From the IMG/VR virus record IMGVR_UViG_3300025695_000092, positions 1-24,374 of that record: 24,374 nucleotides of DNA; one strand, 5' to 3'. Position 1 is the first letter of the stretch. Every line of letters begins with the position of its first letter. Position numbers and translations under genes: made by a program. This document shows, one piece after another, positions 250 through 24,374 of the stretch. Origin of the DNA: a virus. The notes beneath the pieces are model-generated. The model was not told where the DNA came from. It searched no databases and saw nothing but the letters and a program-made list of their open reading frames with translations.

Positions 250-267
250 AAAAAAATAGTATATTTG
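250..267 (+). repeat. 18-nt promoter repeat, copy 1 (copy 2 at 17416-17433)
   Basis: Seven A followed by TAGTATATTTG occurs unchanged here and at 17416-17433, both times just upstream of a gene and ending in the -7 promoter element. The A-run before the box may take the place of the missing -33 element. Two identical copies in noncoding gaps suggest a shared regulatory signal. Confidence 0.75.
260..267 (+). promoter_or_regulatory. Bacteroidota-type promoter, -7 element TATATTTG
   Basis: TATATTTG fits the TAnnTTTG -7 consensus of Bacteroidota primary sigma factors and lies 26 nt before the start codon at 294 in a noncoding gap. No well-placed -33 TTG is present: the nearest TTGs leave spacers of 14 or 28 bp. 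The preceding A-run and the box form an 18-nt sequence (250-267) found unchanged at 17416-17433, which supports a real phage promoter. It would drive the packaging genes. Confidence 0.65.
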
Positions 268-1579: not shown

Positions 1580-3770
1580 CATTATACCTTCCTCTGTTCT
1601 AAAGAATAAGAAGTTTGAATACGGTTATGACGAAAAGTACGATGTAGTCGTGATATCTCGTGATGGAACTGTTGGTGAGATATGGAATATAAATGGCGTT
1701 AAGATAGCGCTTCCAGCTGAACCAAAACAAGTGTATAAAAGAAGTCTTAAAAAGGCAGAACAATACTGGGAACCCAGAGAATATCCAAAGCAACTACATA
1801 AAATACGATCGATATTCCAGTGGAATCAATCACCTAAAGACTTTAAGTCTAGGTGGGTTGATTATATAGAAGAGGAATTTGATAGACGTGAACAGGGTTA
1901 CTGGTTTTACAACAATGGCGTACCTACGTATATAACTGGGACACATTATATGTATCTTCAGTGGACTAAGATAGATGTTGGTCATCCAGATTTTCGTGAA
2001 GCAAATAGGATATTCTTTATATTCTGGGAGGCTTGTAAGGCTGATAAAAGATGTTTCGGTATGGTGTACCTGAAAATACGTCGTTCTGGATTTTCTTTTA
2101 TGTCCTCTTCCGAATGTGTTAATACAGCAACCCTTGCAAAAGATGCGAGAGTTGGTATACTTTCCAAGACTGGTTCTGATTCTAAGAAGATGTTTACCGA
2201 TAAGGTTGTGCCTATATCTAGCAATTATCCATTCTTTTTTAAACCCATACAAGATGGTATGGATAAACCAAAAACAGAGCTTGCATATCGTGTCCCAGCG
2301 TCTAAGATAACAAAGAAAAATATGTATGATATCGACGACGATGCAATTACAGGACTTGATACTACGATTGACTGGAAGAATACAGATGATAACTCATATG
2401 ATGGGGAGAAACTTTTGTTACTTGTTCATGATGAATCTGGTAAGTGGTTGAAACCCAATAATATACTTAATAACTGGCGTGTTACAAAAACATGTTTACG
2501 TTTAGGTAGTAGAATTATAGGTAAATGTCTTATGGGTTCTACTTCAAATGCGTTGGATAAAGGCGGTGATAATTTTAAGAAACTGTACTACGATTCTGAC
2601 CCAAACAATAGAAATGCTAATGGTCAGACTAAAAGCGGATTATATGGTTTATTTATACCTATGGAATGGAACTTAGAGGGATTTATAGACAGGTACGGAA
2701 ATCCAGTTATTGATACTCCTAAATCACCAATAGTAGGTGTTAACGGTGAACACATTCACCAAAGCGCCGTAAATTATTGGGATAATGAAGTTTCTTCATT
2801 AAAGAATGATCCAGATGCATTGAATGAATTTTACAGGCAATTCCCTAGAACTGAGTCACATGCATTTAGAGATGAGAGCAAATCTTCTATATTTAATCTA
2901 ACAAAAATATATCAACAGATGGATTACAATGATAATCTTATCAGAGATCGTGTTCTTGTCCGTGGATCTTTTCATTGGAGAGATGGAAAGAAGGATACTA
3001 ATGTTGTATGGGTTCCTGATAATAGAGGTAGGTTTTTAATATCGTGGATACCAAATCAAAAACTACAGAACAGGGTAGAGGTTAGAAATGGATTAAAATT
3101 CCCAGGAAATGCACATATAGGAGCTTTTGGATGTGACTCCTATGATATATCTGGAACAGTAGGTGGTGGGGGTTCTAATGGAGCTTTGCACGGGTTAACA
3201 ACATTTCACATGGATGATGCCCCAGTAAATGAGTTTTTCTTGGAATATGTAGCTAGACCTCAGACAGCAGAAATGTTTTTTGAAGATGTACTTATGGCCT
3301 GTGTGTTTTACGGGATGCCATTACTAGCTGAGAATAACAAACCAAGACTTCTCTATCATTTCAAGAACAGGGGGTACAGGAAATACTCTTTAAACAGGCC
3401 AGATAAACCCACTAGGAACCTTTCTAAGACAGAAAAAGAACTGGGAGGTATACCTAACTCATCTGAGGCTGTAAAGCAAGCACACGCATCCGCAATAGAG
3501 ACTTATATAGAAAAGTATGTAGGGTTAGATACAGAGGGTAGTTATAGATCTCCAGATGAAATGGGCTCTATGTATTTTTCAAAAACCCTACAAGATTGGG
3601 CTAGGTTTGATATAAACAATAGAACCAAGTTTGATGCCTCTATTAGTTCAGGTTTAGCCATTATGGCAAACCAAAAACATACATATCAAGACGTTAAAAA
3701 ACAGTCAAAAATAAGCATTAACTTTGCAAGATATAATAATCAAGGACGATTTAGCGAAATAATTAGATGA
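1557..3770 (+). CDS. terL: terminase large subunit (packaging ATPase-nuclease)
   Basis: This 737-residue protein has the two-domain plan of phage large terminases. In the ATPase domain a divergent Walker A-like 'KIRRSGFSFM' is at about 173-182, Walker B 'LLLLVHDE' at 286-293, and a coupling-motif candidate 'GSTSN' at 327-331. The RNase H-like nuclease domain starts near 520 with 'GAFGCDSYD' (catalytic Asp about 527), followed by Glu about 576 in 'MFFEDV' and Asp about 693 in 'TKFDASISSGLAI'. It pumps DNA through the portal and cuts the concatemer. The start appears to be TTG at 1557: an in-frame TGA at 1548-1550 closes the frame upstream, and the first in-frame ATG would remove about 130 conserved residues. 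The end overlaps the portal start by 4 bp (ATGA). Confidence 0.93.
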   Translation: MLKEELNNIIPSSVLKNKKFEYGYDEKYDVVVISRDGTVGEIWNINGVKIALPAEPKQVYKRSLKKAEQYWEPREYPKQLHKIRSIFQWNQSPKDFKSRWVDYIEEEFDRREQGYWFYNNGVPTYITGTHYMYLQWTKIDVGHPDFREANRIFFIFWEACKADKRCFGMVYLKIRRSGFSFMSSSECVNTATLAKDARVGILSKTGSDSKKMFTDKVVPISSNYPFFFKPIQDGMDKPKTELAYRVPASKITKKNMYDIDDDAITGLDTTIDWKNTDDNSYDGEKLLLLVHDESGKWLKPNNILNNWRVTKTCLRLGSRIIGKCLMGSTSNALDKGGDNFKKLYYDSDPNNRNANGQTKSGLYGLFIPMEWNLEGFIDRYGNPVIDTPKSPIVGVNGEHIHQSAVNYWDNEVSSLKNDPDALNEFYRQFPRTESHAFRDESKSSIFNLTKIYQQMDYNDNLIRDRVLVRGSFHWRDGKKDTNVVWVPDNRGRFLISWIPNQKLQNRVEVRNGLKFPGNAHIGAFGCDSYDISGTVGGGGSNGALHGLTTFHMDDAPVNEFFLEYVARPQTAEMFFEDVLMACVFYGMPLLAENNKPRLLYHFKNRGYRKYSLNRPDKPTRNLSKTEKELGGIPNSSEAVKQAHASAIETYIEKYVGLDTEGSYRSPDEMGSMYFSKTLQDWARFDINNRTKFDASISSGLAIMANQKHTYQDVKKQSKISINFARYNNQGRFSEIIR

Positions 3771-6208: not shown

Positions 6209-6216
6209 TAATTTTG
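6209..6216 (+). promoter_or_regulatory. Bacteroidota-type promoter, -7 element TAATTTTG
   Basis: TAATTTTG fits TAnnTTTG and lies in the 49-bp gap between portal and scaffold genes, 20 nt before the scaffold ATG. No -33 TTG is visible at the usual distance. A promoter here would allow separate, stronger expression of the scaffold and capsid genes. Confidence 0.5.
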
Positions 6217-6236: not shown

Positions 6237-7343
6237 ATGGAAATCAAAGTAAAAGAGGTCTCAGGACCTGGACAAAAGTCTGTTCAAGAAGTTGAAGAAC
6301 AACTACTTGAGCAGCATGAAGAAACACAGACCGCCGAAGTAGAAATTCAAAACTCGGAAGTCGAGACTACTACAGAAACTGCTGAGGAGCAGGCTGTAGA
6401 ACAAAGCACTCCTCAATTTGGGGAGGAAGACGTTCTTTCATTTATTAAGAATAGATATAACAAAGATATTGAATCTGTCGATGATTTGTTTACTCAACGT
6501 GAACAGAACAATGAATTGCCAGAAGATGTATCAGCTTTCTTAAATTATAAGAAGGAAACTGGTCGAGGTATTAATGACTTCATAAAGTTGCAGGTCAACT
6601 ATGATGAGTTAAACCCAGATCAGGTATTGCGTGATTACTATTCTGCAACTGAAAATGACTTAGACTCAGAAGATATTGAATATCTTATAGGAGAAAAGTT
6701 TTCTTATGACGAAGAATTGGATGAGGAGTCAGTTGTTAAGCAGAAGCAAATCGCAAAAAAAAGAGAACTTGCAAAGGCAAAGAAATACTTTAATGATTTA
6801 AAGGAGACGTACAAGGTTCCAGTCGAGTCGGCTAGTACACCTGTCAACGAAGAAGAATTGGAGTCTTACAATGCTTACAAGGAATATATATCACAGTCAC
6901 AAAGTGTCCAAGAAGAGAACAGTAAACGTGCGGAATACTTTGCCAAGAAAACTGAAGAGCTTTTCAACGATGAATTCAAAGGTTTTGAGTTCGTAATCGG
7001 TGATCAGAAACTTGTTTTCACACCTGGTGAAGCTAAGGAAGTAAAAAATGTTCAGTCTGATATCAACAACTTCATTTCAAAATATTTGGATGATAATGGA
7101 ATGGTAAAGGATCATGTTGGATACCATAAGGCTTTAAGCGCTGCTTTAAATCCTGATAAACTTGCAACCTATTTCTATGAAAAGGGAAAAGCAGATGCTG
7201 TGGGAGATGTTACAAAGAGGTCAAAAAATATTGACATGAATGTAAGAACATCACCTCAACAGTTATCTAATAATTCAGGATTAAAGATAAGAGCTGTAGA
7301 GTCTAAATATGACCGTGATTTTAAGATTAGATCAAAAAAATAA
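6237..7343 (+). CDS. putative capsid scaffolding protein
   Basis: This 368-residue, highly charged protein lies between portal and major capsid genes, the standard place for a scaffold. Residues 1-60 are very rich in Glu, Gln and Thr (for example 'EEQLLEQHEETQTAEVEI') and are probably disordered. The middle has long charged helices (about 150-250), and the C-terminus ends in a basic stretch 'YDRDFKIRSKK', reminiscent of the basic coat-binding tail of scaffolds such as that of P22. It would template procapsid assembly and then leave. No protease signature is seen in it or nearby, so proteolytic maturation is not supported. It has its own promoter candidate 20 nt upstream. The function is inferred from position and composition, as scaffold sequences are poorly conserved. 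Confidence 0.7.
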   Translation: MEIKVKEVSGPGQKSVQEVEEQLLEQHEETQTAEVEIQNSEVETTTETAEEQAVEQSTPQFGEEDVLSFIKNRYNKDIESVDDLFTQREQNNELPEDVSAFLNYKKETGRGINDFIKLQVNYDELNPDQVLRDYYSATENDLDSEDIEYLIGEKFSYDEELDEESVVKQKQIAKKRELAKAKKYFNDLKETYKVPVESASTPVNEEELESYNAYKEYISQSQSVQEENSKRAEYFAKKTEELFNDEFKGFEFVIGDQKLVFTPGEAKEVKNVQSDINNFISKYLDDNGMVKDHVGYHKALSAALNPDKLATYFYEKGKADAVGDVTKRSKNIDMNVRTSPQQLSNNSGLKIRAVESKYDRDFKIRSKK

Positions 7344-9617: not shown

Positions 9618-9651
9618 ACCCCTTCAGAAATGGAGGGGTTTATTTATTTTT
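9618..9651 (+). terminator. Rho-independent terminator with GAAA tetraloop
   Basis: A 9-bp stem (9618-9626 with 9631-9639, one G-U pair) encloses a GAAA tetraloop and is followed by a T-rich tract (TTATTTATTTTT) to 9651. It stands between the 247-aa gene and a promoter, a clear boundary between transcription units. Confidence 0.85.
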
Positions 9652-9654
9652 GAT

Positions 9655-9662
9655 TATATTTG
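9655..9662 (+). promoter_or_regulatory. Bacteroidota-type promoter, -7 element TATATTTG followed by CA
   Basis: TATATTTGCA fits the -7 consensus plus the commonly following CA. It lies directly after the terminator and 16 nt before the ATG at 9679, so the untranslated leader would be about 10 nt. No -33 TTG is seen at the usual spacing. It would drive the connector and tail genes. Confidence 0.7.
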
Positions 9663-9678
9663 CATAAAATATTAAAAG

Positions 9679-10638
9679 ATGATAAACACTGTAAGGAATA
9701 CTGTATTGGCTATTGCTAACAAGCATAACTTCGGATACATAACTCCTGCTGACTTCAATCTTTATGCAAAGCAAGCTCAACTAGATATCTTCGAGAACTA
9801 CTTTTACAGATATAATGAATGGTTGGCTAAGCAAAACGCTAGAGTTTCTGGAAGTCAATATGCAGATATAGTAAAAAATTTAGAAGAGGCTATAGACCTA
9901 TTTTCTGTAGAGGAATCTCTATATAGAAATCAATCAAACGTGTATAATACTCCTAATGAAACAAACAACGACAATACTTATTACCTTATGAATAAAGCAT
10001 TGGTATATCAGAGTGTTCTTTCTGAAGGAACAACTGATGGAACCTCTGGGGGAAATAACTCTATTGTGGATTCAACACAAGACTTTACATCGATGGGGGT
10101 GTCTGTTGGTGACTATGTAGCTGTTCAAATTGAAGGTGGTATTTTATTTCTAACCGTTATTGCTCTTGTTGGGACTGATCAATTAACAGTAAATTCAACA
10201 AACATTACAACATCTGGAAACCCTTACGCTATATATAGTGCTTCAACAAGCTTGAAAGAAGCTGAGAGAGTATCTCACTCTAAAATCACAATGCTTAACG
10301 TATCAAACCTTACAGCACCAAAAACAAACACTCCAGCGTATACACAGAGTGAGCTTACAGTATCATTATACCCTTCTACAATAAACGCAGTAGGGCAGGT
10401 TAGGTTACAATATATAAGAAAACCTAAAGATCCTAAATGGACATACACAACGTTAGAAGGTGGCGAACCAGCTTTCAATCAGGGTGCATCTGATTATCAA
10501 GACTTTGAGTTGCCTGCTAGTGATGAGTCAAACTTAATAAGTAAGATCCTTCAGTATGCTGGAATATCTATAAGAGAGGCAGATATTTATCAAGCTGCAT
10601 CTAATAAGGAAATTAAAGAAGTACAAAAACAAGGATAA
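9679..10638 (+). CDS. putative head-tail connector ring protein
   Basis: This 319-residue protein has a helical N-terminal part ('YITPADFNLYAKQAQLDIFENYFYRYNEWLAKQN', about 20-53) of the kind found in ring/connector proteins of crAss-like and related podoviruses. A Gly/Thr-rich beta segment is inserted at about 115-190 ('STQDFTSMGVSVGDYVAV' ... 'QLTVNSTNITTSGNPYAIY'), then a beta part containing 'VRLQYIRKPKDPKW', and a C-terminal helix 'ESNLISKILQYAGISIREADIY' that returns to the connector-like pattern. The insert looks like a small barrel added within the ring fold. It is the first gene after a new promoter and shares TAATG with the next ring-like gene. The exact ring is not determined. Confidence 0.65.
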   Translation: MINTVRNTVLAIANKHNFGYITPADFNLYAKQAQLDIFENYFYRYNEWLAKQNARVSGSQYADIVKNLEEAIDLFSVEESLYRNQSNVYNTPNETNNDNTYYLMNKALVYQSVLSEGTTDGTSGGNNSIVDSTQDFTSMGVSVGDYVAVQIEGGILFLTVIALVGTDQLTVNSTNITTSGNPYAIYSASTSLKEAERVSHSKITMLNVSNLTAPKTNTPAYTQSELTVSLYPSTINAVGQVRLQYIRKPKDPKWTYTTLEGGEPAFNQGASDYQDFELPASDESNLISKILQYAGISIREADIYQAASNKEIKEVQKQG

Positions 10639-14500: not shown

Positions 14501-16665
14501 AGGAGTCACACAGATATACCGATATTACATATAGTGGTGTATATAACGATGAGACCAACTTAAACAAACTAAACGAATTCAACCTTGGTTTAGTTAATTT
14601 TAAGACTTTAGAGAAATCTTTCGGACCTGTTGAGGTTATACACGCAAGACAAAAGGATATTCTTGTTCTACAAGAGGATAAGATATCATACGTCCTATTG
14701 GACAAAAACTTGTTATCTGATGCTGGAGCAGGGGGAAGTATTGTTTCTACACCTGCTGTTTTAGGAACTCAACTAGCACGTATTGAAGAGTTTGGTATCA
14801 GTAACCATCCTGAAAGCTTTGCTGTTCACGGTTTTGATGTATTCTTTACAGACCAAAAAAGAGGTTCTGTAATCAATCTTAGAGGTGGACAGGGTCCTGG
14901 AGATCAATTAAATATTGTATCTTCGTTAGGGATGCGTTCTTGGTTTAGAAATGAGTTTATAGATAACATGAATAACATACAGTTGGGTGGATATGATCCG
15001 TACATGAATGAGTATGTATTATCTTTCACAGATAACGATCTTGACATACAGAGAGATACAATTGATTGTGGATTTACTGTGGCTCAACAAAATTCTAATA
15101 CACCTATCACGTATACAGTTAATTTAGATGAATACAATGGAGAAGTTGATGTAGACTACGATGTAACGGCTGGAAGTCTTCATGTTTTAGTAACCTATGA
15201 CGGAACAGATGTTATCGATCAGTCTGTAACTGGATCTGGAACTTTAACATTCTCAAGGAACCAATACAATGTAAATAACTGCGTTGTTGTGTTAACACCA
15301 ACTTCAGCAACCTATGAACTTGATTTCGGCTGTGTACAAGCTCAGCAACTTACTGTTATAAGGATAGTTAAAAACACAAATTATATGGAAACCCAGTCTA
15401 TTCATCATGAGTACTTCTGGGAAGCAAATGGATATACAAGTCCAGTTACAACAGATTCTGTGACATTTGGAGAGGGGCCAGTGTCCCTATATGAATCGTT
15501 TACTAACTACGAATCTTCTGGAGGAGCTCCAGAGGAGGGTGCAATTGTTACAATGAGACACAAGAAGTTAGCATCTGATTTGGCAGAATGGGATTATGAC
15601 AAGTTTAAGTATCTCGTATCGGATACGCTGTATGATGAGAGTGATATCAACACGTTGAGCCCTCTTCTTCAAGAAGCAACCCCGATAAACAACCCTGCAA
15701 CAGATGTATATGAGGCTTCATTTACATATGCAAACCCATCAGATCATCAATACCTATATTTAGTTTGGGATTATATAGAGCCTCAGATTGAATGTTCTGA
15801 CACACTTTCAGCAAGTGGTAGTGAAGGTATATATGAAATAGAACTTGAGTTAGGTACGGATACAGGTATTGCTACGATTCAGTTTGACTCTTTAGGTATT
15901 CCTGATAGATTTGAAATACTGTGGGACGGATCGGTAGTAGCTGACTCTTTATTTGTTGGAGATGACTTGCCAGATACTACGAACGAAAATTTAATTATAA
16001 ACGCAGATTCTCTACCTGTATACAGATATAACGGAACCAGTTTTTCTCAAAGTACAACAGAACCTACAAGGAATGTAAATTTCACATCCGCTCATATATC
16101 AAATTCATCAACGGCTAGACCAACGTCTGGCGATGGATCTATAGGAAATCAGTTAGGTGTTGTTGGGGGCTTCCCAACAGGAACTCCTTTGGCATCTGAT
16201 GGAAATGTTAAGTTAGAGTTTAATAAAGATACAGCATACCCAACAAAAGCAACTATTAGAGTTACTGGCGTAAATACAGGTACAGCTTGGAATATTCAAG
16301 GGGTTGAGTGTCCTATAGATACAACACCTGTAGAACCTGTAGAATATGATGTAAGTGAGTTTTTCTTGCAAGACTGGGCATGGCAAGATGACGTTGATCC
16401 GCAAGGGGGAAGTACAGAGCATGTTGTTGTTATTGAACTTACAAATGGAAATTGGTATTATGACATTCTAAATGGATCTGGACTAAGTGGATTTGAGTCT
16501 GAATACCCAATTGGTAGTACGATTGATCTATCTGATGATATGTCTGGCCCATTTGCTAGTGATACTTTAGCGGAAGAACACTTTGAACAATCGGTAGGAG
16601 GTTCCTTAATCACGGACTTCAACTACGTGAGCGTTAATACTAACAATTATACAATAGTAGAATAA
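11557..16665 (+). CDS. giant tail nozzle/muzzle-like protein (T7 gp12-type)
   Basis: This 1702-residue protein is the tail tube end piece by family. The N-terminus 'MNKSLDERLIPAGDYIDALN' (12-31) is the hallmark start of crAss-like 'muzzle'/stabilisation proteins. The beta-rich body includes 'TTVGNRIMYANYYDGYDI' and a beta-propeller-like block near 1010-1160 ('VIHARQKDILVLQEDKIS', 'GISNHPESFAVHGFDVFFTD', 'LGGYDPYMNEYVLSF'). It would form the nozzle below the adaptor ring and keep DNA in. From about 1170 on, Thr/Ser/Asp/Gly-rich beta modules are appended. One of them (about 1409-1588, 'YEIELELGTDTGIATIQF', 'IPDRFEILWDGSVVADS', 'VNTGTAWNIQGVECP') resembles a module recurring in marine phage tail proteins and may face the host surface. 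It overlaps the next start (TAATG). Confidence 0.8.
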   Translation: MNINKNFVGSRMNKSLDERLIPAGDYIDALNIRVSSDEDGEALTAENAKGNELLVTPEYEGSVLTNAKCIGAFEDGTNETIYWFVTSDEADMILSYNTRTDSIAYHVVSVTVLNFNDKYLMNGIDKIDDFLFFTDNYNQPRRINVKSSYPNPVSNVDQITEDDISVIVKPPVNAPVLKLFKKATKQNYMEDKFIRFAYRYKYKDGEYSALSEFSELAFTPGQFRLDYGSYDMVGMKNSSNSVNVSFNTGPSEVVGIDLCFKLSNSNVINVVEKYKKTDSGWADDANVTIEFTNQKIYTTLTESELLRLYDNVPKKAKAQTTVGNRIMYANYYDGYDIDTVIDYELDLINHDIGFDPVPEDMSNGSAYTLSGSSVTITDSRIDIDLTDVNLLEGGSLNIDFNIRHDSFGGDNSYVDGNEVENRYQETFEFIFPRDYTSVHDLATDADFLSSVELTDPTGFPGTESDGYSLSDLFFSNLTMHASGDWGLSDGGITSSDQGFVVTYSVNTISIQVPSVKFESTVTPGTYAYEYFLMAETTASVTEQGNRQSLHSNRDYEVGVVYLDEYNRASTALVCNNNTVYVEPQDSINKNSVKATIKHLAPSWAKRYRLVMKPSKGNYETIYSKQYYFDEQESVWWVKLEGDNQTKFKNGDNLIVKRSSAGPTTDVVKTKVLDLGSKTKGFIDDSGDNMIPPTSGIYMKLRPTQYNISEPEYGDIDKGSKTKKNGYGLAYPTYIEDDENPGTYKNYDIPSGSEIRFYFSNHRNGSGYRCGSRRFKFERTFTATRDYNNLYDFILGENIDFNNPTNSPATESSDDTTPSAAFDESVGVYDGVPDGIFQGGYNAGEGKTGIRWAEKGTERTGDYESYLTFTQAGGRCNRRNYWLDVHIQVFRAGELLVFETIPEENTNEIYYEGQKSYPITQDRYHTGDEQNQNATNACVVNLDMFNCFAFGNGVESFKIEDGLAKPGFKIGARVTAVSEQDYKESHRYTDITYSGVYNDETNLNKLNEFNLGLVNFKTLEKSFGPVEVIHARQKDILVLQEDKISYVLLDKNLLSDAGAGGSIVSTPAVLGTQLARIEEFGISNHPESFAVHGFDVFFTDQKRGSVINLRGGQGPGDQLNIVSSLGMRSWFRNEFIDNMNNIQLGGYDPYMNEYVLSFTDNDLDIQRDTIDCGFTVAQQNSNTPITYTVNLDEYNGEVDVDYDVTAGSLHVLVTYDGTDVIDQSVTGSGTLTFSRNQYNVNNCVVVLTPTSATYELDFGCVQAQQLTVIRIVKNTNYMETQSIHHEYFWEANGYTSPVTTDSVTFGEGPVSLYESFTNYESSGGAPEEGAIVTMRHKKLASDLAEWDYDKFKYLVSDTLYDESDINTLSPLLQEATPINNPATDVYEASFTYANPSDHQYLYLVWDYIEPQIECSDTLSASGSEGIYEIELELGTDTGIATIQFDSLGIPDRFEILWDGSVVADSLFVGDDLPDTTNENLIINADSLPVYRYNGTSFSQSTTEPTRNVNFTSAHISNSSTARPTSGDGSIGNQLGVVGGFPTGTPLASDGNVKLEFNKDTAYPTKATIRVTGVNTGTAWNIQGVECPIDTTPVEPVEYDVSEFFLQDWAWQDDVDPQGGSTEHVVVIELTNGNWYYDILNGSGLSGFESEYPIGSTIDLSDDMSGPFASDTLAEEHFEQSVGGSLITDFNYVSVNTNNYTIVE

Positions 16666-17417
16666 TGGCATACACACTAACATATAGCGAAGGAGCAAAA
16701 GGATGGCCTTCATTTTACTCGTTTCATCCAGAGGTAATGATTGGTATGAATAATTACTTTTACTCATTTAAGAATGGAAGATTATACAGACATAATACTG
16801 GAACTAGAAATAGCTTCTACGGAACTCAATACCCCTCAACCATTACAGGGGTTATAAACGACAATCCGTCTGAAGTAAAGACCTTCAAAACCATAAACCT
16901 TGAGGCTTCGGCTCCATGGAACTGCACCTTAACTAGTGATTTAGGAACTGGTTTCATAGATAGAGATTGGTTTAGCTTAAAGGAGGGAGATTATTACGCA
17001 CATATTAGAAGAAATGATAATGATGGTGTGCTTGAGATGAGATCTCTGCAAGGTATTGGCTCATGTAGCGATGTAAATTCAACTGATACATCTGCCGTTG
17101 TGGTTGCATTTTCTTTTAGACCAGATAGCATGATATCTATAGGAGACAAGATGTATCAACAATCAGGAGGAGGGTTAGCCTTAGTTGGAGATATAATAGC
17201 AATCAGTAAAACCACTATAACTGTAGACACAACCGTAAGCGGGGGTTCAGTACCTCCAAACGGCGTATTTTTAGCTTACATAAAAAACAATATAGCAGAA
17301 TCTTACGGAACCACTGGGTATTACTTGGAATACGAATTAGAATTACCTATAGTTGCCTCGTCAACCTTTACAGAGATTTATGCTATAGGATCCTCTCTAT
17401 TTAAGAGTTTTCCATAA
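16665..17417 (+). CDS. tail-associated structural protein, partner of the nozzle gene
   Basis: This 250-residue beta-rich protein begins 'AYTLTYSEGAKGWPSFYSFH' and continues 'MIGMNNYFYSFKNGRLYRHN' and 'FYGTQYPSTITGVINDNPSE'. I associate this pattern with proteins encoded just after, or fused to, the nozzle/muzzle protein in Bacteroidota phages. Around 150-205 a segment 'PDSMISIGDKMYQQSGGG ... GDIIAISKTTITVDTTV' looks like a small beta barrel, and the C-terminus 'YGTTGYYLEYELELPIVAS' ends in strands. It shares TAATG with the 1702-aa gene, so it is probably made in step with it and may bind the nozzle. No enzymatic motif is seen. Confidence 0.65.
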   Translation: MAYTLTYSEGAKGWPSFYSFHPEVMIGMNNYFYSFKNGRLYRHNTGTRNSFYGTQYPSTITGVINDNPSEVKTFKTINLEASAPWNCTLTSDLGTGFIDRDWFSLKEGDYYAHIRRNDNDGVLEMRSLQGIGSCSDVNSTDTSAVVVAFSFRPDSMISIGDKMYQQSGGGLALVGDIIAISKTTITVDTTVSGGSVPPNGVFLAYIKNNIAESYGTTGYYLEYELELPIVASSTFTEIYAIGSSLFKSFP

Positions 17418-17433
17418 AAAAATAGTATATTTG
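17416..17433 (+). repeat. 18-nt promoter repeat, copy 2 (copy 1 at 250-267)
   Basis: This is identical to 250-267. Here its first two bases overlap the last bases of the stop codon of the 250-aa gene, so the whole promoter is squeezed into 22 bp between two coding regions. Confidence 0.75.
17426..17433 (+). promoter_or_regulatory. Bacteroidota-type promoter giving a leaderless or near-leaderless mRNA
   Basis: TATATTTGCA fits the -7 consensus plus CA and lies only 6 nt before the ATG at 17440, so transcription would begin at or within a few bases of the start codon. The 18 nt at 17416-17433 repeat 250-267 exactly. No -33 TTG is seen at the usual spacing. Confidence 0.7.
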
Positions 17434-17439
17434 CACTGA

Positions 17440-17988
17440 ATGAATTTAATTAAGATAGTAAAATCTGTTTTTAAGAAAAAACGCAATGATGAAGATATAT
17501 TAAAATATGTTCATCAAAACAGAGGAATACTCTGGGAAAAGATTGCTACATTCAAAGAACAACTACTATCTATTGAAGGATCTTTGGAACACAAGGCTGG
17601 TAACCCACAATCTGAAGAGATGAAGGATATGTTCCCTTTAAAGCAAACCCTGGAGGGTGGTCTTTATACAAGGGAATTGTTCATGCCAAAAGGCTCTATA
17701 GTTGTTAGCATGATACATAAACAACAACATCCATCATTTCTATTAAAAGGAAAGGTGTCGTATTTAACCGACGAAGGTGATATAAAAACTATAGTAGGAC
17801 CACACACCATATTTACTCAGACGGGTACACAGAGAGTTCTATATATACACGAAGACACTGATTGGTGTTGTGTATATAAAACGGATGCAAAAACATTTGA
17901 AGAAGCCGAGGCAGATGTATATACAGATAATTACAGAGATTTGCCTAAGATAGTTATAAAAGAAAAAAAGAAATTATGTCAGGAATAG
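17440..17988 (+). CDS. cupin-like protein of the tail region
   Basis: This 182-residue protein has a basic N-terminal helix ('NLIKIVKSVFKKKRND'), a helical spacer to about 60, and a cupin-like beta barrel at about 64-150: 'FMPKGSIVVSMIHKQQHPSF' (81-100), 'LLKGKVSYLTDEGD' (101-114), 'GPHTIFTQTGTQRVLYIHED' (120-139) and 'DWCCVYKTDA'. H93, H97, H122 and H137 could include metal ligands, but the classic cupin HxH pair is spaced HxxxH here. Similar cupin-like proteins occur next to tail genes in many phages without a proven role, so I do not assign an activity. It has its own promoter 6 nt upstream and overlaps the next gene by 13 bp. Confidence 0.7.
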   Translation: MNLIKIVKSVFKKKRNDEDILKYVHQNRGILWEKIATFKEQLLSIEGSLEHKAGNPQSEEMKDMFPLKQTLEGGLYTRELFMPKGSIVVSMIHKQQHPSFLLKGKVSYLTDEGDIKTIVGPHTIFTQTGTQRVLYIHEDTDWCCVYKTDAKTFEEAEADVYTDNYRDLPKIVIKEKKKLCQE

Positions 17989-18779
17989 CAGCAGCAATTG
18001 GAGCAGGGGTAGCAGTACTAGGTACTGGTTTTCAGATTTCCCAAGGTCTAAAACAAACTAAAATGGCTAAAGATGCTCAAAGAGCTTCAGCAACAGCATT
18101 ATCACAAGCAAAGCAAAGATTAGATGCAAACAGAATGGAAGGTATTCAAATTCCTTTAGAATCTTATGAGAGATTGATGAATGAAATGACTGCACAACAG
18201 AAACAATCTCTAACAAGTTTGCAAGAAGCAGATGAAAGAACATTAGCTGCTGGTATAGGTAAATTATACGCCGCTTCATCTGGAGAAACAGAAAAGATTA
18301 GAGATAAAATGGGTGAGGCTATATATGATAGAGACAAAATGATTGCGCAAGAAGATGCTAGAATAGATAGAGCTCTTGCTTCTATAAATTTAGAAGAGGC
18401 AATTGGTTTTGAAAAAGAGGCTTCTCAAAGAGAGGAAGCAGCAGCATTGAATTTTGCTGGAGCAATATCTGGTTTAGGACAGGCTGCAAGTTTGTATCAG
18501 CAGAGTAGGCCACTATATAGTCAAAGACAAGGAGAATTGTCTGCTGCAACAGAATATCAAAAACAATCAGGTAAGTATGCAGACATGAACGCAAGACAGG
18601 CTAGAAGAGCTATGTTATCAGATGGTTTTACTAATGAAGGTTTTAAAAATATAACCTCTGGATTAACATCTTATGTAAAACCTTTTGAAATACCCCAACC
18701 GAAAGGTATCCAACCATTAACTGGAGCTACGATACCTATAATGGATATTATACCTGTTACTACACCTAAAAGCAACTAA
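17976..18779 (+). CDS. putative internal virion protein (T7 gp14-like position)
   Basis: This 267-residue protein starts with a small-residue hydrophobic stretch 'GIAAAIGAGVAVLGTGFQI' (3-21), like a glycine-zipper membrane segment. It then turns into long Ala/Gln/Glu/Met-rich helices ('SQAKQRLDANRMEGIQIPLESYERLMNEM', and 'ADERTLAAGIGKLYAASSGE' near 85-105) and ends in a Pro-rich tail. This pattern matches small internal virion proteins of podoviruses that are injected and insert in the host envelope, such as T7 gp14. Its place after the nozzle genes and before two larger proteins agrees with that. The assignment is by pattern and synteny. The start overlaps the cupin gene by 13 bp. Confidence 0.6.
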   Translation: MSGIAAAIGAGVAVLGTGFQISQGLKQTKMAKDAQRASATALSQAKQRLDANRMEGIQIPLESYERLMNEMTAQQKQSLTSLQEADERTLAAGIGKLYAASSGETEKIRDKMGEAIYDRDKMIAQEDARIDRALASINLEEAIGFEKEASQREEAAALNFAGAISGLGQAASLYQQSRPLYSQRQGELSAATEYQKQSGKYADMNARQARRAMLSDGFTNEGFKNITSGLTSYVKPFEIPQPKGIQPLTGATIPIMDIIPVTTPKSN

Positions 18780-18790
18780 TAAAATAAACA

Positions 18791-20455
18791 ATGGGATACG
18801 GATATCAAGAAAGAGATTTAGATAAGTCGGTAATAGACTGGTCAGGTTTAACCAAGACTATATCTGACAATTTGTCTAAAGAAGCTCAGCGCAGAGAGAA
18901 AGTTAAGTTTGAACTTGAAAAAACTCAACAAGATGAGCTACAGAAGCTTAATGAGTACGAGCAAGGTTTGGACCCGTCTGCGAATAAGTGGGCTATGGAG
19001 ATGGCTCAGCAAGCAAGAGAGTTCAAAATGCAAAACCACAAGATCATGAAAGCTGGTATTAGATCTGTAAACGACTCAAAACTTGTAAGTCAAAATGTTA
19101 TGGATGGATGGACCAATCTTAATGGTGCGTTAAAATCATACAACGAGACATACAAAAAACTTAGTGAAAAAGACGGCAAAGGAAACCAGTTTATTTTACA
19201 AGAAATGGCTGACTTTGTTGATTTGAAAAACAAAAAAATATATTACGATCCAAATACAGGATCTCCATACTTTGCTAATGTAGATCCTAAAACTGGTAAG
19301 ATGGACGAAAAGAGTCTTAGACCAGTTAGAGCATTTAACAACGTGCAAGCTCAAGAGTTTGAAGTTATTGATGTCGAGTCTGAAACTGCAAAGATGGCTG
19401 AAAACACTGCCGCATGGGAGTTGGCTCTTAGTTCTACTAAAGACTTAAAGAACGCACGAATAAACCCTACATATCAACAATGGCGTGACAATAGTGTTAA
19501 ATCAATATTGAGTAGTGATCAAAGAACAGCTTCTGTTCTAATGGATTATTTAAACTTAGATCCAACTAGTGACCCAAAAGCTCCTTCTGGAGCTGTAACA
19601 TATGAAAGAGTAAAAGATTATGATAAGCAAGGTAAACCTATCATGGAGACTGTTACAAAAAACATTGGGCAGGTTCAGATGGAGTATGTTAATGGTGTTC
19701 TTACACCAAAGCTTACGGATGAGCAAAAAGAACTTGCAAAAGATGCGGTTGTTTCTTCTTTAGAAAACAAACTAGCATTTAAAACATCTCTACAATATGT
19801 TGCACCTAAAACAAAAAGTTCAGTTACTACAACAAATACAAACGTAGCTTCTCTAGTACAAGACTTTGTTACTGATGGAAACTTCTCTGCACTACAATCA
19901 GCATTATCTCAAAAAGGATTTACTGGTACAGTTGCTCCTGACGCTAATGGTATTATAAAATTAAGAGATAAAAACGGAGCCTTACTAAACGTTAACACTA
20001 AAGGTAAGACAGCTCAAGATGTTGGTTCTGAAATCTCTGGTTACCTTGGTGTTGGTTCAGAATTTAATCAAAGAAGAATTAAAGGTGACCTAAACTCAAA
20101 TATTTTAGACCCTAAAAATGCAGAAAACTTTGGAACATTCTCTACAAGAGCTACTACTATAAGTAGTCAAAGTATTGATCTTATAGATCTAGCTAAGTCA
20201 GATGCAGCGAAGGTCAAGTCTTCTGTTCAGAAGGCGGCCAAGGAAGTAGGTATCACAGCTAGTAGAGTAACAGTTACTAACAGAGAAGTATTACTAGATG
20301 GCAATGTTATTGGAAATATTGGAGTTACAAGTGGATCAGAAATTGCAGAAATACTAGAGCAAGAAGCTAAAGGAAAAAAAACTAATAAACCGACGTATCA
20401 AGAGTGGAAAAAAACCAATCCAAATGGAACGTTTTCAGAATGGCAAAAAATTTAA
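18791..20455 (+). CDS. putative internal virion/cargo protein (T7 gp15-like position)
   Basis: This 554-residue, mostly helical and hydrophilic protein begins 'YGYQERDLDKSVIDWSGLTK' and continues with a Gln/Glu/Lys-rich coiled coil (about 25-90). A Lys/Asp-rich middle contains 'DPNTGSPYFANVDPKTGK', and from about 330 there is a Thr/Ser/Ala-rich mixed part. The last 23 residues carry a short aromatic motif 'PTYQEWKKTNPNGTFSEWQK'. There is no signal peptide, membrane segment or enzyme motif. Its place between a gp14-like protein and a giant multidomain protein suggests virion cargo, as for T7 gp15, but I do not recognise the family with certainty. It starts at ATG after an A-rich leader 11 bp downstream of the previous stop and ends 5 bp before the next gene. 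Confidence 0.6.
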   Translation: MGYGYQERDLDKSVIDWSGLTKTISDNLSKEAQRREKVKFELEKTQQDELQKLNEYEQGLDPSANKWAMEMAQQAREFKMQNHKIMKAGIRSVNDSKLVSQNVMDGWTNLNGALKSYNETYKKLSEKDGKGNQFILQEMADFVDLKNKKIYYDPNTGSPYFANVDPKTGKMDEKSLRPVRAFNNVQAQEFEVIDVESETAKMAENTAAWELALSSTKDLKNARINPTYQQWRDNSVKSILSSDQRTASVLMDYLNLDPTSDPKAPSGAVTYERVKDYDKQGKPIMETVTKNIGQVQMEYVNGVLTPKLTDEQKELAKDAVVSSLENKLAFKTSLQYVAPKTKSSVTTTNTNVASLVQDFVTDGNFSALQSALSQKGFTGTVAPDANGIIKLRDKNGALLNVNTKGKTAQDVGSEISGYLGVGSEFNQRRIKGDLNSNILDPKNAENFGTFSTRATTISSQSIDLIDLAKSDAAKVKSSVQKAAKEVGITASRVTVTNREVLLDGNVIGNIGVTSGSEIAEILEQEAKGKKTNKPTYQEWKKTNPNGTFSEWQKI

Positions 20456-20460
20456 AATAA

Positions 20461-23400
20461 ATGGAAGAGATATACGAAATGCTACCAGAAGGAATCTTTA
20501 ATGATTATAAAGGTTTCTCAGAATACGTTAACAGTAATGGTATAGACGCGGTATATGAAATGCTACCAGAAGGAATCTTTAATGACAAACAAGGATTTAT
20601 AGACTATACATCTTCATTAAAAAAAAAAGACGTATCTCAGCCTACTTCTCCAAAGGTCGTTACGGAGTCTATTACCAAGGAAGAAACAATTCCTACCTCA
20701 TTGGAGTCTTCAGAAAGTTTAGATAAATCTAAATTAAATGAAGAAGGTGGTTTTGGAGAATACATAAAAGATGCTTTAGATGTAGGTATTTCTACAGTTT
20801 CAAAATCTATATATGATGCTCCTGCACTTATTTATGACGCATTTGCTACTATAACAAACCCAATAGCTAGAACTCTAGGTATTGAAGAAGCTAGTTCTGA
20901 AAAATTTGCAGAGACATTTGATTTAAAAAATATTCCATCTGAAATTGTTGGAGAAAGAATTGCTAAAAAACAAAAAGAAATACAAGAGTATAGCGATAAG
21001 AATGGAGGAGATGCTTTAACTGCGTTAGAAAATGGAAATATATTAGGTGCTGCAAAAATGATTGCAGGAACTACTGCTCAGTCATTACCTTTAATGGTTC
21101 CTGTTTTTCTAAGTGCAGGATCGTCTTTAGGTCTAGGCGTTGTTGGAGTTTCTACAGCTTCTACAAAAGCTGCGCAATTAAAAGAAGAAAATCCTGACAT
21201 GGATGTAGCATCAAGGACTATTAATGCAACTGCTACTGGTATGTTAGAAGCCACATTGGGACAATTATTAACAGGGGCTTCTGGTGCTGTTACTAAAAGA
21301 ATATTAGCTCAGGAAGGTAGTAAAAAAGGAGCTAAAATAATAACTGATTCTTTTAGAGGAATACTAGAAGAAGGATTAGAAAAAAGTCCAATTGCATCAT
21401 TATTTGGAGAGATGCTTGAGGAAGGGTTGGTATCTGTTGGAGAACAACTTACTGATATATCAACAGGAGTAAAGAACGACTTTGATTTTAGAGAGGTTGT
21501 AAATTCATCCATATCAGCAACTGGTATGGGAGGTGTGAATACAGTTTCTATTTATGGATCAAAAGGATATGTAGCCGCAAAAGAATACGCTAAATTAAAG
21601 AAATTAAACAAAAATCTATCGAAACTTTCTAGTGAACTTGATAATAGTGATTTATCTGTTGAAGAGAAAGATTTGTTAAAAAAATCCATAGAAAGATTAA
21701 AATCTGCAGGAAAAAATATAATTGATGATGCTATAGCAAATGTATCATTACTCCCTGAAGAACAAAGAAAGGAATTAGAGAATACAATTCTAAATTTAGA
21801 TAATATTAGTGTGTCTGCGTTTGAAATAAATTCAAATAACAAAATTCCAAAAGAAGTAAAAAAAGTAATGTTAGATGAATTAAAAGCAAAAGCAATTGAA
21901 CTAACACAAAAAAAAGACAACATACTATCTAAAAATTATAGATTAAACGAATTTGAGAGTTTACCTGATTCTGAAAAAATAAAACTAAAAGAAGAAGCTG
22001 CTTCAGTTCTTTTTAAAGAGTCTCAAGACTCAGGACAAACTAATATAAATATAACAGACGATCAAATAAGCAGAAAAGCTTTAGATATATTTACTAATAA
22101 AAAAGAATTAGATGCCATTCAAAAGCAAGAAACAGGAGATATATCTGATGCTAAACCAGCCGAAGGTGTACAAGAAGTGGAAGAAGAAGTACGGGTCACT
22201 CCTGAGCAAGAAGCGAAAGTAGACGAGCGTGCTTACAAACCAGAAGAGGTAAAAGAAACCACAGATACAGCAGCATTCGCAGCCTCACAACAAGAGGCTA
22301 TAGCACAGCGTGTGGAAGATAAACTACAAGTCACACCTGTAACACAAGAAAATGCACAAGCTATTGTAGATGAAGGAGGTAAGCTATTCATGACCGAAGA
22401 TGGTAAGGCTGGAGCCTACGTCAAAAAAGACGGTTACATGGGTGGTTTATTTAAACAACCAGGAGCTGACAGAACACAGGCTTCTAAAGTGCTTCAAGAT
22501 GCACGAATAGAAGCTGGAGGTAAATTCTTTGATGCATTTGGTATCAATGTAGAAAGTGGTAAAGGAACAAATCTTGAAGACATATATATAAAGAATGGCT
22601 TCAGACCTATCGCTCGTATGACATTTAATCCTGAGTTTGCGCCTAAAGGATGGGAAAATACAAACTTAAAGAACCGTCCAGACAACGTGTTCTTTGTTTA
22701 CGATCCTGGATATAAGGCTACAAAAGGAGAGGGTCAACGTATAGAAAATTACGATCAAGCATATAAGCTTGCTAAAAATTTCTCACCTGAAGCTGCAAAA
22801 GTTGAGGGAGAAGTGCAGCAATTAAGAGATATGTTTAAAGCCCCTGATCAAAGAAAACAGGTAGAGAATGCTGAAAAAGCACTCAAGGCTGTAGCACCTG
22901 ATGTAAAAATCATAGTGCATGAGAGTGAACAAGCCTACGCCGAAGCGACTAATGAGCAGAACCGTGCTCAAAAAACAGCTGGAGAATATAATCCAAATAC
23001 AAAGACCATCCACATAAATCCTAAAAAGGCAAACGTAAGAACTGTAGCGCACGAAACATTCCATGCTATACTTCTTAATATGGTTAAGACAGATACTGAA
23101 GCACAGCGTCTTACAGATGCTATGATGAAGTCAGTAGCAAAAGTTGAGTCTCCAGAACTTAAAGCGTACCTAGACGAGTTCGCATCTAATTATGATCAAA
23201 ATATTAGGTCTGAAGAAAAACTTGCAGAGCTTGTAGGTAAACTAGCATCTGAATATGATAGCCTTCCAAAACCAACGCAAAACATTATTAAGAGATGGTT
23301 AGATAGGCTTGCTAAGATGTTTGGTTTTAAACCATTTACCAACGATCAAGTTATCGATGTACTTAATACTATAGCAGGTAAGGTAGCAAGAGGTGAAGCG

Positions 23401-24374
23401 ATTACAGAAAATGATGTTTCTGCAATATCAGAAGGAGCATCTACATTCTTTAGTGGTCCAACAACTATAAGTAAAAAACAGGTATCTAGAGAGGTTAAGG
23501 TTTCTGACACACCTGCCGACCTATCATTTGTTACATCGAAAGATATTATAGATATCGATAGTCTTATAAATGATATATCTTCTAAAGGACAAAAAGTTTG
23601 GTTCTGGGTAGCCGATCAATTAGGTAGAGGAATGTATATGGATACGCAGATAGGTACAGAACACTTCTTAGACGCTGGACCAAGTTATGCATTGGATCCA
23701 AAAAATAGAGCTAAGAAAACAATATGGGCTACAGGTAAAGGTGAGTCTGAAGTATCTAAATTGATAGATAAATCTGATTACATATTTATAATGAGTGGAT
23801 CACCAATAAAATCTAAGCTATTTAATAAGAGGGTATTGAACATCCTCAAGGATAGAGTGGGTGATTACAATGCGTTTAAAGAAGGTGCGCTCAATGCTAA
23901 GCCAACTAAACCTTTTAGAGATGTTCTTGAAGCTCATGATAACTGGGAATCATTAACTGAAAGTCCAGACAGAAAGAAACTTCTAAATGCGATTGAGAGC
24001 GTTAAAGAGAAGAAAGATACGCCATTAAAAACATTCTTACAAGATAATAATGCATTCATTGATTTGAATGAACTTAGAGATGGTTTTTACGCACAGAATG
24101 ATTTCCAAATGAATGACGTTATGTTGGTATTAAAACCAACTGCATTTGGAGGAAAGTCTGATCACTCAACGTATGAGAACGATATCTCTGGAGAAGTTAT
24201 TGGTGTGCCAAATAAAAAAATCAATGCATACGACTTAATGCCAGAGGATGTAAAACAAAAGTATTCTGACTCAATAACAGAGTCTCAGAAAGCACAAGTT
24301 GTTGCTCCTTACGGTATTGGAGTTAAAGGTATCTCTTCAAGAAAACAAATCGTGGGTAAGAAAGCTAGACTTTC
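20461..24374 (+). CDS. giant polyvalent virion protein with zincin protease motif, 3' end beyond window
   Basis: The frame is open from ATG 20461 to the window edge (1304 codons, no stop). Visible parts in order are: a duplicated 'YEMLPEGIFND' motif (5-15 and 32-42); a hydrophobic, Gly/Ala-rich patch (200-234, 'SLPLMVPVFLSAGSSLGLGV') that could contact membranes; charged helices (to about 560); a Glu/Pro/Thr-rich linker; a GNAT-like region (about 640-770, 'YIKNGFRPIARM'); a zincin-type domain (about 820-950) with HExxH at H864-E865-H868 ('TVAHETFHAIL') and E919 or E923 as possible third ligand; and a C-terminal domain from about 1040 ('VWFWVADQLGRGMYMD', 'HFLDAGPSYALDP'). Such polyvalent proteins are known in phages as packaged, co-injected effectors. 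It stands where T7 has gp16. A composition break occurs near residue 560. Function is inferred. Confidence 0.85.
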   Translation, partial: MEEIYEMLPEGIFNDYKGFSEYVNSNGIDAVYEMLPEGIFNDKQGFIDYTSSLKKKDVSQPTSPKVVTESITKEETIPTSLESSESLDKSKLNEEGGFGEYIKDALDVGISTVSKSIYDAPALIYDAFATITNPIARTLGIEEASSEKFAETFDLKNIPSEIVGERIAKKQKEIQEYSDKNGGDALTALENGNILGAAKMIAGTTAQSLPLMVPVFLSAGSSLGLGVVGVSTASTKAAQLKEENPDMDVASRTINATATGMLEATLGQLLTGASGAVTKRILAQEGSKKGAKIITDSFRGILEEGLEKSPIASLFGEMLEEGLVSVGEQLTDISTGVKNDFDFREVVNSSISATGMGGVNTVSIYGSKGYVAAKEYAKLKKLNKNLSKLSSELDNSDLSVEEKDLLKKSIERLKSAGKNIIDDAIANVSLLPEEQRKELENTILNLDNISVSAFEINSNNKIPKEVKKVMLDELKAKAIELTQKKDNILSKNYRLNEFESLPDSEKIKLKEEAASVLFKESQDSGQTNINITDDQISRKALDIFTNKKELDAIQKQETGDISDAKPAEGVQEVEEEVRVTPEQEAKVDERAYKPEEVKETTDTAAFAASQQEAIAQRVEDKLQVTPVTQENAQAIVDEGGKLFMTEDGKAGAYVKKDGYMGGLFKQPGADRTQASKVLQDARIEAGGKFFDAFGINVESGKGTNLEDIYIKNGFRPIARMTFNPEFAPKGWENTNLKNRPDNVFFVYDPGYKATKGEGQRIENYDQAYKLAKNFSPEAAKVEGEVQQLRDMFKAPDQRKQVENAEKALKAVAPDVKIIVHESEQAYAEATNEQNRAQKTAGEYNPNTKTIHINPKKANVRTVAHETFHAILLNMVKTDTEAQRLTDAMMKSVAKVESPELKAYLDEFASNYDQNIRSEEKLAELVGKLASEYDSLPKPTQNIIKRWLDRLAKMFGFKPFTNDQVIDVLNTIAGKVARGEAITENDVSAISEGASTFFSGPTTISKKQVSREVKVSDTPADLSFVTSKDIIDIDSLINDISSKGQKVWFWVADQLGRGMYMDTQIGTEHFLDAGPSYALDPKNRAKKTIWATGKGESEVSKLIDKSDYIFIMSGSPIKSKLFNKRVLNILKDRVGDYNAFKEGALNAKPTKPFRDVLEAHDNWESLTESPDRKKLLNAIESVKEKKDTPLKTFLQDNNAFIDLNELRDGFYAQNDFQMNDVMLVLKPTAFGGKSDHSTYENDISGEVIGVPNKKINAYDLMPEDVKQKYSDSITESQKAQVVAPYGIGVKGISSRKQIVGKKARL
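20476..20585 (+). repeat. 29-nt perfect direct repeat within the polyvalent gene
   Basis: The 29 nt at 20476-20504 recur unchanged at 20557-20585, 81 bp (27 codons) later. They encode EMLPEGIFND both times, and the flanking 'GF(S/I)(E/D)Y' residues also match, so a unit of about 27 residues is duplicated. The identity at synonymous positions suggests a recent duplication. Confidence 0.9.

Follow-up and report, generated by a model that had tools for sequence, protein, structure and literature searches.

A conserved promoter-like box behind the muzzle gene of crAss-like phages and a predicted leaderless slot for interchangeable small genes

The sigma-A promoters described in F. johnsoniae and F. 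psychrophilum carry a -7 element of the TTTG or TAnnTTTG type. Transcription in F. johnsoniae starts 4 or 5 nt after the -7 box, while the -33 element is described as much less evident; 87% of the leaders are longer than 10 nt and the mean leader is 33 nt (PMC6847099). The median leader in F. psychrophilum is 24 nt and 5.5% are leaderless (PMC9723704), and about 3.7% of the 5' UTRs of B. thetaiotaomicron are shorter than 10 nt (PMC7366714). Transcription of crAss-like late genes is believed to depend on the host RNA polymerase (PMC10136315, PMC8375218). The locus presented here has a -7 word of the same class, again with a -33 element that is faint or absent. However, the leaders of F. johnsoniae and F. 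psychrophilum are mostly longer, while the leader predicted for the cupin-fold gene described below is 1-2 nt. As in the minority of leaderless Bacteroidota mRNAs, the start codon is predicted to lie at or beside the 5' end. Leaderless messages in Bacteroidota are known as a share of the genes, whereas here a single position appears to persist throughout a phage lineage, even where one gene has been exchanged for another.

Two kinds of phage have comparable gene orders. The junction of gp44 (muzzle) and gp45 (cargo protein 1) in PhicrAss001 likewise contains a -7-type box, TACATTTG. There, however, 107 nt separate the genes, the box-to-ATG gap is 19 nt, no cupin or GNAT gene lies between, and a hairpin with a T run can be seen by eye. 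The gp45 cargo protein has been proposed to be ejected and to help form a membrane channel (PMC10172136). A related cupin (tblastn 9e-14 to 3e-10), annotated as short tail fiber or adhesin, is present in the gammaproteobacterial podoviruses BA3, VPMS1, Vibrio 234P9 and Shewanella X14, which are four of the five examined among the 51 records with a match. It directly precedes a gene matching a DNA-ejection PHROG and overlaps the next gene by 1, 19, 13 and 10 nt, respectively. Its start ranges from a 1-nt overlap with the preceding gene to a distance of 7 nt beyond it, which leaves no room for the promoter layout considered here. The fifth record, Alteromonas H4/4, has a different gene order.

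The window, that is, the whole stretch of DNA analysed, is a virus record of 24,374 bases. It encodes late proteins of crAss-like type, namely a terminase (PHROG 6681), structural proteins and a muzzle protein. The muzzle protein scores 66.5 bits with PF25729 against a cut-off of 27, which assigns the record to the crAss-like phages, and it was also aligned with five phage records. A megablast search for near-identical phage records gave no match, and near records may be left out of that search. The features are as follows.

260..267, + strand: comparison promoter, 26 nt before ATG 294
6209..6216, + strand: comparison promoter, 20 nt before ATG 6237
9655..9662, + strand: comparison promoter, 16 nt before ATG 9679, with a terminator-like site upstream at 9618-9639
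16665..17417, + strand: C-terminal muzzle gene, 250 aa, ending in KSFP (Pfam PF25729 crAss_MUZ_C)
17426..17433, + strand: putative -7 promoter element TATATTTG (TAHHTTTG type), from sequence and conserved across junctions
17434..17439, + strand: spacer CACTGA, with an in-frame TGA (17437-17439) before the ATG, from sequence
17440..17988, + strand: cupin-fold gene, 182 aa, predicted leaderless (PHROG 12032, predicted fold)
17976..18779, + strand: structural gene of the virion following the cupin gene, 267 aa (matches PHROG 13764, virion structural protein, at 6e-14)
18791..20455, + strand: 554-aa protein (PHROG 35506, function unknown, weak match 2e-5), by position perhaps a second internal protein
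20461..24374, + strand: giant open frame of at least 1304 aa reaching the window end, no PHROG match

The box TATATTTG agrees with the -7 sequence of Bacteroidota sigma-A promoters (TAHHTTTG) and ends 6 nt before the ATG at 17440, exactly as the original prediction had placed it. That prediction gave the span as 17416-17445, which opens within the muzzle stop codon. It had also given 16-26 nt for the other three promoters, and the distances from box to ATG are 26, 20 and 16 nt. The cupin start codon is secure because a TGA stands in frame just before the ATG and the first ten codons after it contain no alternative in-frame ATG, GTG or TTG. The spacing rule of F. johnsoniae would put the transcription start at 17438 (4 nt) or 17439 (5 nt), so that the cupin mRNA would have a leader of 2 or 1 nt. 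RNA structure at the predicted 5' end is not unusual (z 0.21 and 0.74). Promoters of the E. coli sigma-70 type, which were also considered, are fewer in the window than in shuffled sequences (32 vs 45.3).

The box could be a chance match and no promoter. The word TANNTTTG occurs 32 times in the window against 30.0 expected, which is the chance level, so that the box is not significant by counts alone. A TTG or TTTG -33 element is also absent at spacers of 15-25 nt from all four window boxes, but it is not treated as defining because it is much less evident in F. johnsoniae according to PMC6847099. This explanation is nevertheless highly improbable, since the box recurs at a fixed position in 100 of 109 distinct muzzle junctions, and the genes that come next differ. 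The pool scanned comprised 80 muzzle loci, the window, the five phage records and other phage loci. It yielded 158 muzzle frames, of which 5 were cut, and the rest gave 109 junctions differing in a 70-nt stretch, near copies among them still being counted separately. The 100 boxed junctions include the window's own, and in 92 of them the box is located 6-8 nt past the muzzle stop. Among cupin relatives in viral contigs, 46/47 have an upstream box, with gaps of 3-7 nt in 32 and 15-20 nt in 14; one of them (L047) has a second box inside the gene, and the upstream box was used in this count.

No box was detected in nine junctions (L020, L045, L049, L051, L071, L085, L086, L097 and L270). Two of these, L045 and L071, do carry the box, the muzzle frame ending early in the junction scan. 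A third, L049 (Cellulophaga phage phi38:1), has the muzzle stop at 3747 and TATCTTGT located 3 nt before a GNAT-like ATG at 3769. This word resembles the TAnnTTGY variant box reported for F. psychrophilum (PMC9723704). The host chromosomal contigs gave 114 pattern matches and two confirmed muzzle genes, both from Flavobacteriaceae and without a usable box. A muzzle gene and a GNAT gene are found inside an 837-kb contig of Aquimarina longa (scaffold1, L224) and inside an 862-kb contig of Flavobacterium caseinilyticum (contig2, L225). This placement suggests that the contigs contain integrated or chromosomally captured crAss-like elements. In both, the GNAT gene starts across the muzzle stop or behind it, and phi13:2 is alike; the single box match in L224 overlaps the GNAT ATG itself.

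The distance from the box to the start codon depends on the kind of gene that follows. For a cupin the gap is 3-8 nt in 28/40 boxed junctions and 15-20 nt in the remaining 12, so a leaderless start is not required for the cupin gene. For a gene of GNAT fold it is 3-7 nt in 33/36. The three exceptions are one gap of 16 nt (L053, Maribacter phage Panino, where the annotated GNAT start lies further upstream) and two junctions, L123 and L130, without an in-frame ATG near the box. In the cultured Flavobacterium phage elemoF the box is 4 nt before the ATG of the GNAT gene. A structural gene placed directly after the box has a gap of 16-39 nt in 20/21 junctions and of 4 nt in one (L152); the follower is unknown in four junctions. 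Gaps of 3 nt occur at two junctions, L048 (with a second ATG at 6 nt) and L208, and fit the 4-5 nt rule badly because the transcription start would fall inside the ATG.

It is important to compare these junctions with gene starts in general. The phage loci used for this count gave 1370 distinct starts, with boxes at 4-7 nt before 68, at 8 nt before 3, at 9-12 nt before 2 and at 14-30 nt before 185. For these four bins the counts with a reversed control word were 0, 2, 1 and 15. Those with a second control word, which is noisy because its last letters form an ATG at one offset, were 2, 0, 17 and 52. Gene clusters other than cupin and GNAT have 17 short, 2 middle and 177 long gaps. Comparison of cupin plus GNAT with all other clusters, short against long, gives a Fisher p of 3e-29; the p values of 3e-29 and 4e-31 overstate independence, the rows being related. 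The host genomes were sampled in parts of 400 kb each, and the counts from these two parts are small: among 306 starts in Aquimarina longa, 2 have a box at 3-8 nt, 1 at 9-12 nt and 17 at 13-26 nt, and the same bins hold 5, 0 and 23 of 324 starts in Flavobacterium caseinilyticum, with the reversed word giving 0, 1, 2 and 0, 0, 6, respectively. The near-empty zone at 9-12 nt may be a host rule. A gap of this size would give leaders of about 4-8 nt, which would presumably be too short for normal ribosome binding and too long for reading from a terminal AUG.

These distances bear on two other explanations. The short spacing could simply result from genome compaction, with genes packed as tightly as they can be behind a promoter that is needed, and leaderless initiation would then bring no advantage. 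Neighbouring genes do overlap or abut, and the muzzle and cupin genes are separated by only 22 nt; the promoter is indeed squeezed between two genes, as was originally noted, although this is a trait of the family and not peculiar to the window phage. However, compaction should fill the 9-12 nt zone too, and this zone is near empty both in the phages and in the portions of the two host genomes that were sampled. Most other promoters of these phage genomes also have long gaps: genes of the type found at window position 6237 have 58 long gaps and 0 short, and those of the type at 9679 have 76 long and 7 short. Compaction is thus an unlikely cause. Alternatively, the box could be a real promoter while most of the cupin protein comes from polycistronic read-through transcripts, in which the upstream context is normal; the leaderless transcript would then be minor or would mainly serve the downstream structural gene. 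No terminator-like site was found on the + strand between the muzzle and cupin genes, the intergenic distance is short, and the box is missing in L224, L225 and L270, where the GNAT gene begins across the muzzle stop or immediately after it, the arrangement expected for coupling. Yet read-through explains neither the difference between the 3-8 nt gaps of the small genes and the 16-39 nt gaps of the structural genes nor the near-empty zone. We consider this explanation possible but less likely than not. Some read-through from the promoter of the upstream operon at 9655 probably also supplies the cupin message, because no terminator-like site was found between the muzzle and cupin genes.

The preferred reading, to which we assign a probability of about 70%, is that a conserved internal promoter behind the muzzle gene serves a leaderless slot in which small genes can be exchanged, each tightly joined to the virion gene that follows. 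Several features of the spacing are consistent with it. The short spacers vary in their letters, with 20 different ones before cupins and 22 before GNAT genes. In L087, L091 and L117 the box is about 10 nt further upstream, with the muzzle TAA stop forming its first letters, and the ATG has shifted along with it so that the gap stays at 4-5 nt. In the cupin tree, built from 40 rows (of which 26 are short, 13 are long and 1 lacks a box; midpoint root, 13/37 inner branches unresolved), the short or long label needs 2 changes, and 0/500 shuffles were as low; the short spacing is spread over the tree. The bases before the ATG differ as well. An A at -3 is found in 12/49 starts of the short class, 72/165 long-gap starts and 604/974 remaining starts, a bin that includes a few short-gap genes of other clusters; short against long gives p = 0.02. 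A G at -4 is present in 27%, 1% and 8%, respectively. The usual bias (A at -3, little G at -6 to -4) is therefore missing before the short-class ATGs, a comparison that is partly confounded because these positions also lie just behind the box. The spacing, the shifted boxes and the lost base bias may be taken as signs of selection. Together with the conserved box, the 3-8 nt gap and the near-empty 9-12 nt zone, the lost bias lends the original leaderless reading indirect support. The accompanying suggestion, that such a start allows translation by altered ribosomes late in infection, found no support in this analysis.

The genes occupying the slot belong to two folds. The cupin gene matches PHROG 12032 (4e-23), labelled short tail fiber protein, and a Pfam search of its protein gave no match. 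An AlphaFold2 model from 38 sequences has a pLDDT of 84.3, and its best Foldseek match in the PDB is the cupin TM1459 (E 9.2e-7), with modest TM values of 0.40/0.59. The model thus predicts a double-stranded beta-barrel cupin fold for the gene at 17440..17988, and the name cupin given to it earlier is right by predicted fold. His93, His97 and His137 are invariant in the 38 sequences. Their spacing is HxxxH and not the HxH of the canonical cupin metal motif. The GNAT model (26 sequences) has a pLDDT of 96.0 and its best match is RimI, of the GNAT acetyltransferases (1.6e-6); the 26 aligned N-termini differ by no more than 2 residues. Its viral-library matches include 'Internal (Core) protein' at rank 16, 'DUF2824 family protein' at 49 and 'Protein inside capsid A' at 50. 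These names presumably tie to T7 gp13 and P22 gp14, proteins which we take to occupy a like position, before the ejection genes. The link of the GNAT slot gene with the T7 gp13 and P22 gp14 type is one of fold and position only.

Both kinds of small gene are closely joined to the next one. The window cupin overlaps the structural gene at 17976 by 13 nt, and the overlap is exactly 13 nt in 28/40 cupin genes; no box was found from -45 to +40 around the cupin stop in any of the 40. GNAT genes abut the next gene, with 1 nt between them in 19/29, and a box is present there in 1/29. With no box of its own at the next virion gene, the slot box is the nearest box for that gene too. Comparison of gene 17976 with known DNA-ejection proteins gave an hhalign probability of 5.4% and a different PHROG. 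Its role is claimed by position alone, because it has no profile similarity to podovirus ejection proteins; only the gene order and rough size agree with an ejection protein like T7 gp14 or P22 gp7.

The arrangement would work as follows. A late promoter of the host sigma-A type would be located in the short gap behind the muzzle gene, and the transcript would start at the start codon of the small gene, here the cupin, or up to about 3 nt before it. The small gene would then be read as a leaderless message. Its end overlaps or touches the start of the next structural gene, and that gene lacks a separate box, so the promoter would drive both. The slot is occupied alternatively by a cupin or by a GNAT-fold protein, and these occupants may help to make or assemble the internal proteins encoded downstream. 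A further-reaching proposal is that a slot dedicated to leaderless genes is maintained in the crAss-like phages of Flavobacteriia, its promoter being fixed to the muzzle gene end and exchangeable small genes sitting on the transcription start. The slot would exploit a host rule by which leaders measure either about 0-4 nt or some 8 nt and more, giving the slot gene and its coupled virion gene a separate initiation at a 5'-terminal AUG. We put this forward tentatively, its chances being only a little short of even.

Bacteroidota messages are without Shine-Dalgarno sequences, and the start on leaderless messages by Bacteroidota ribosomes is little studied, as far as we searched. Although a minority of Bacteroidota messages is known to be of this kind, a leaderless position conserved among crAss-like phages would be new as far as searched. 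The literature searches found no paper on leaderless genes in Crassvirales, nor one treating crAss-like phages, promoters and leaderless genes together. In one phage lineage the same promoter occurs in several natural versions before related genes, for which leaders of about 0-4 or 10-16 nt are predicted, and the scarcity of 9-12 nt gaps leads to a directly testable rule on permitted leader lengths. The comparison also suggests that crAss-like phages and gammaproteobacterial podoviruses have a slot in common ahead of their internal-protein genes.

Other sites in these genomes have related arrangements. In the window, the terminator-like site at 9618-9639 is followed by two boxes (9645-9652 and 9655-9662) and then by the ATG at 9679; this appears to be a clean operon border, in contrast to the muzzle-cupin junction. 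Seven starts of the window-9679 type (cluster 4), for example L076 2309, L152 12234 and L163 4931, have gaps of 5-7 nt, and these genes would be a second place with a switch of leader class. Past the muzzle stop of L123, inspection by eye shows the GNAT frame opening at a GTG located 4 nt downstream of TACCTTTG, which may be a leaderless start. In L129 and L130 the box is followed after 7 nt by an ATG whose frame is only two codons long, and the GNAT frame has no ATG nearby, which may reflect a broken gene, an error or an odd start. The word TAACTTTG is found 4 nt before the ATG of three related muzzle-type frames (L163 12464, L166 11621 and L184 11979), which gives a further short-gap box one gene upstream.
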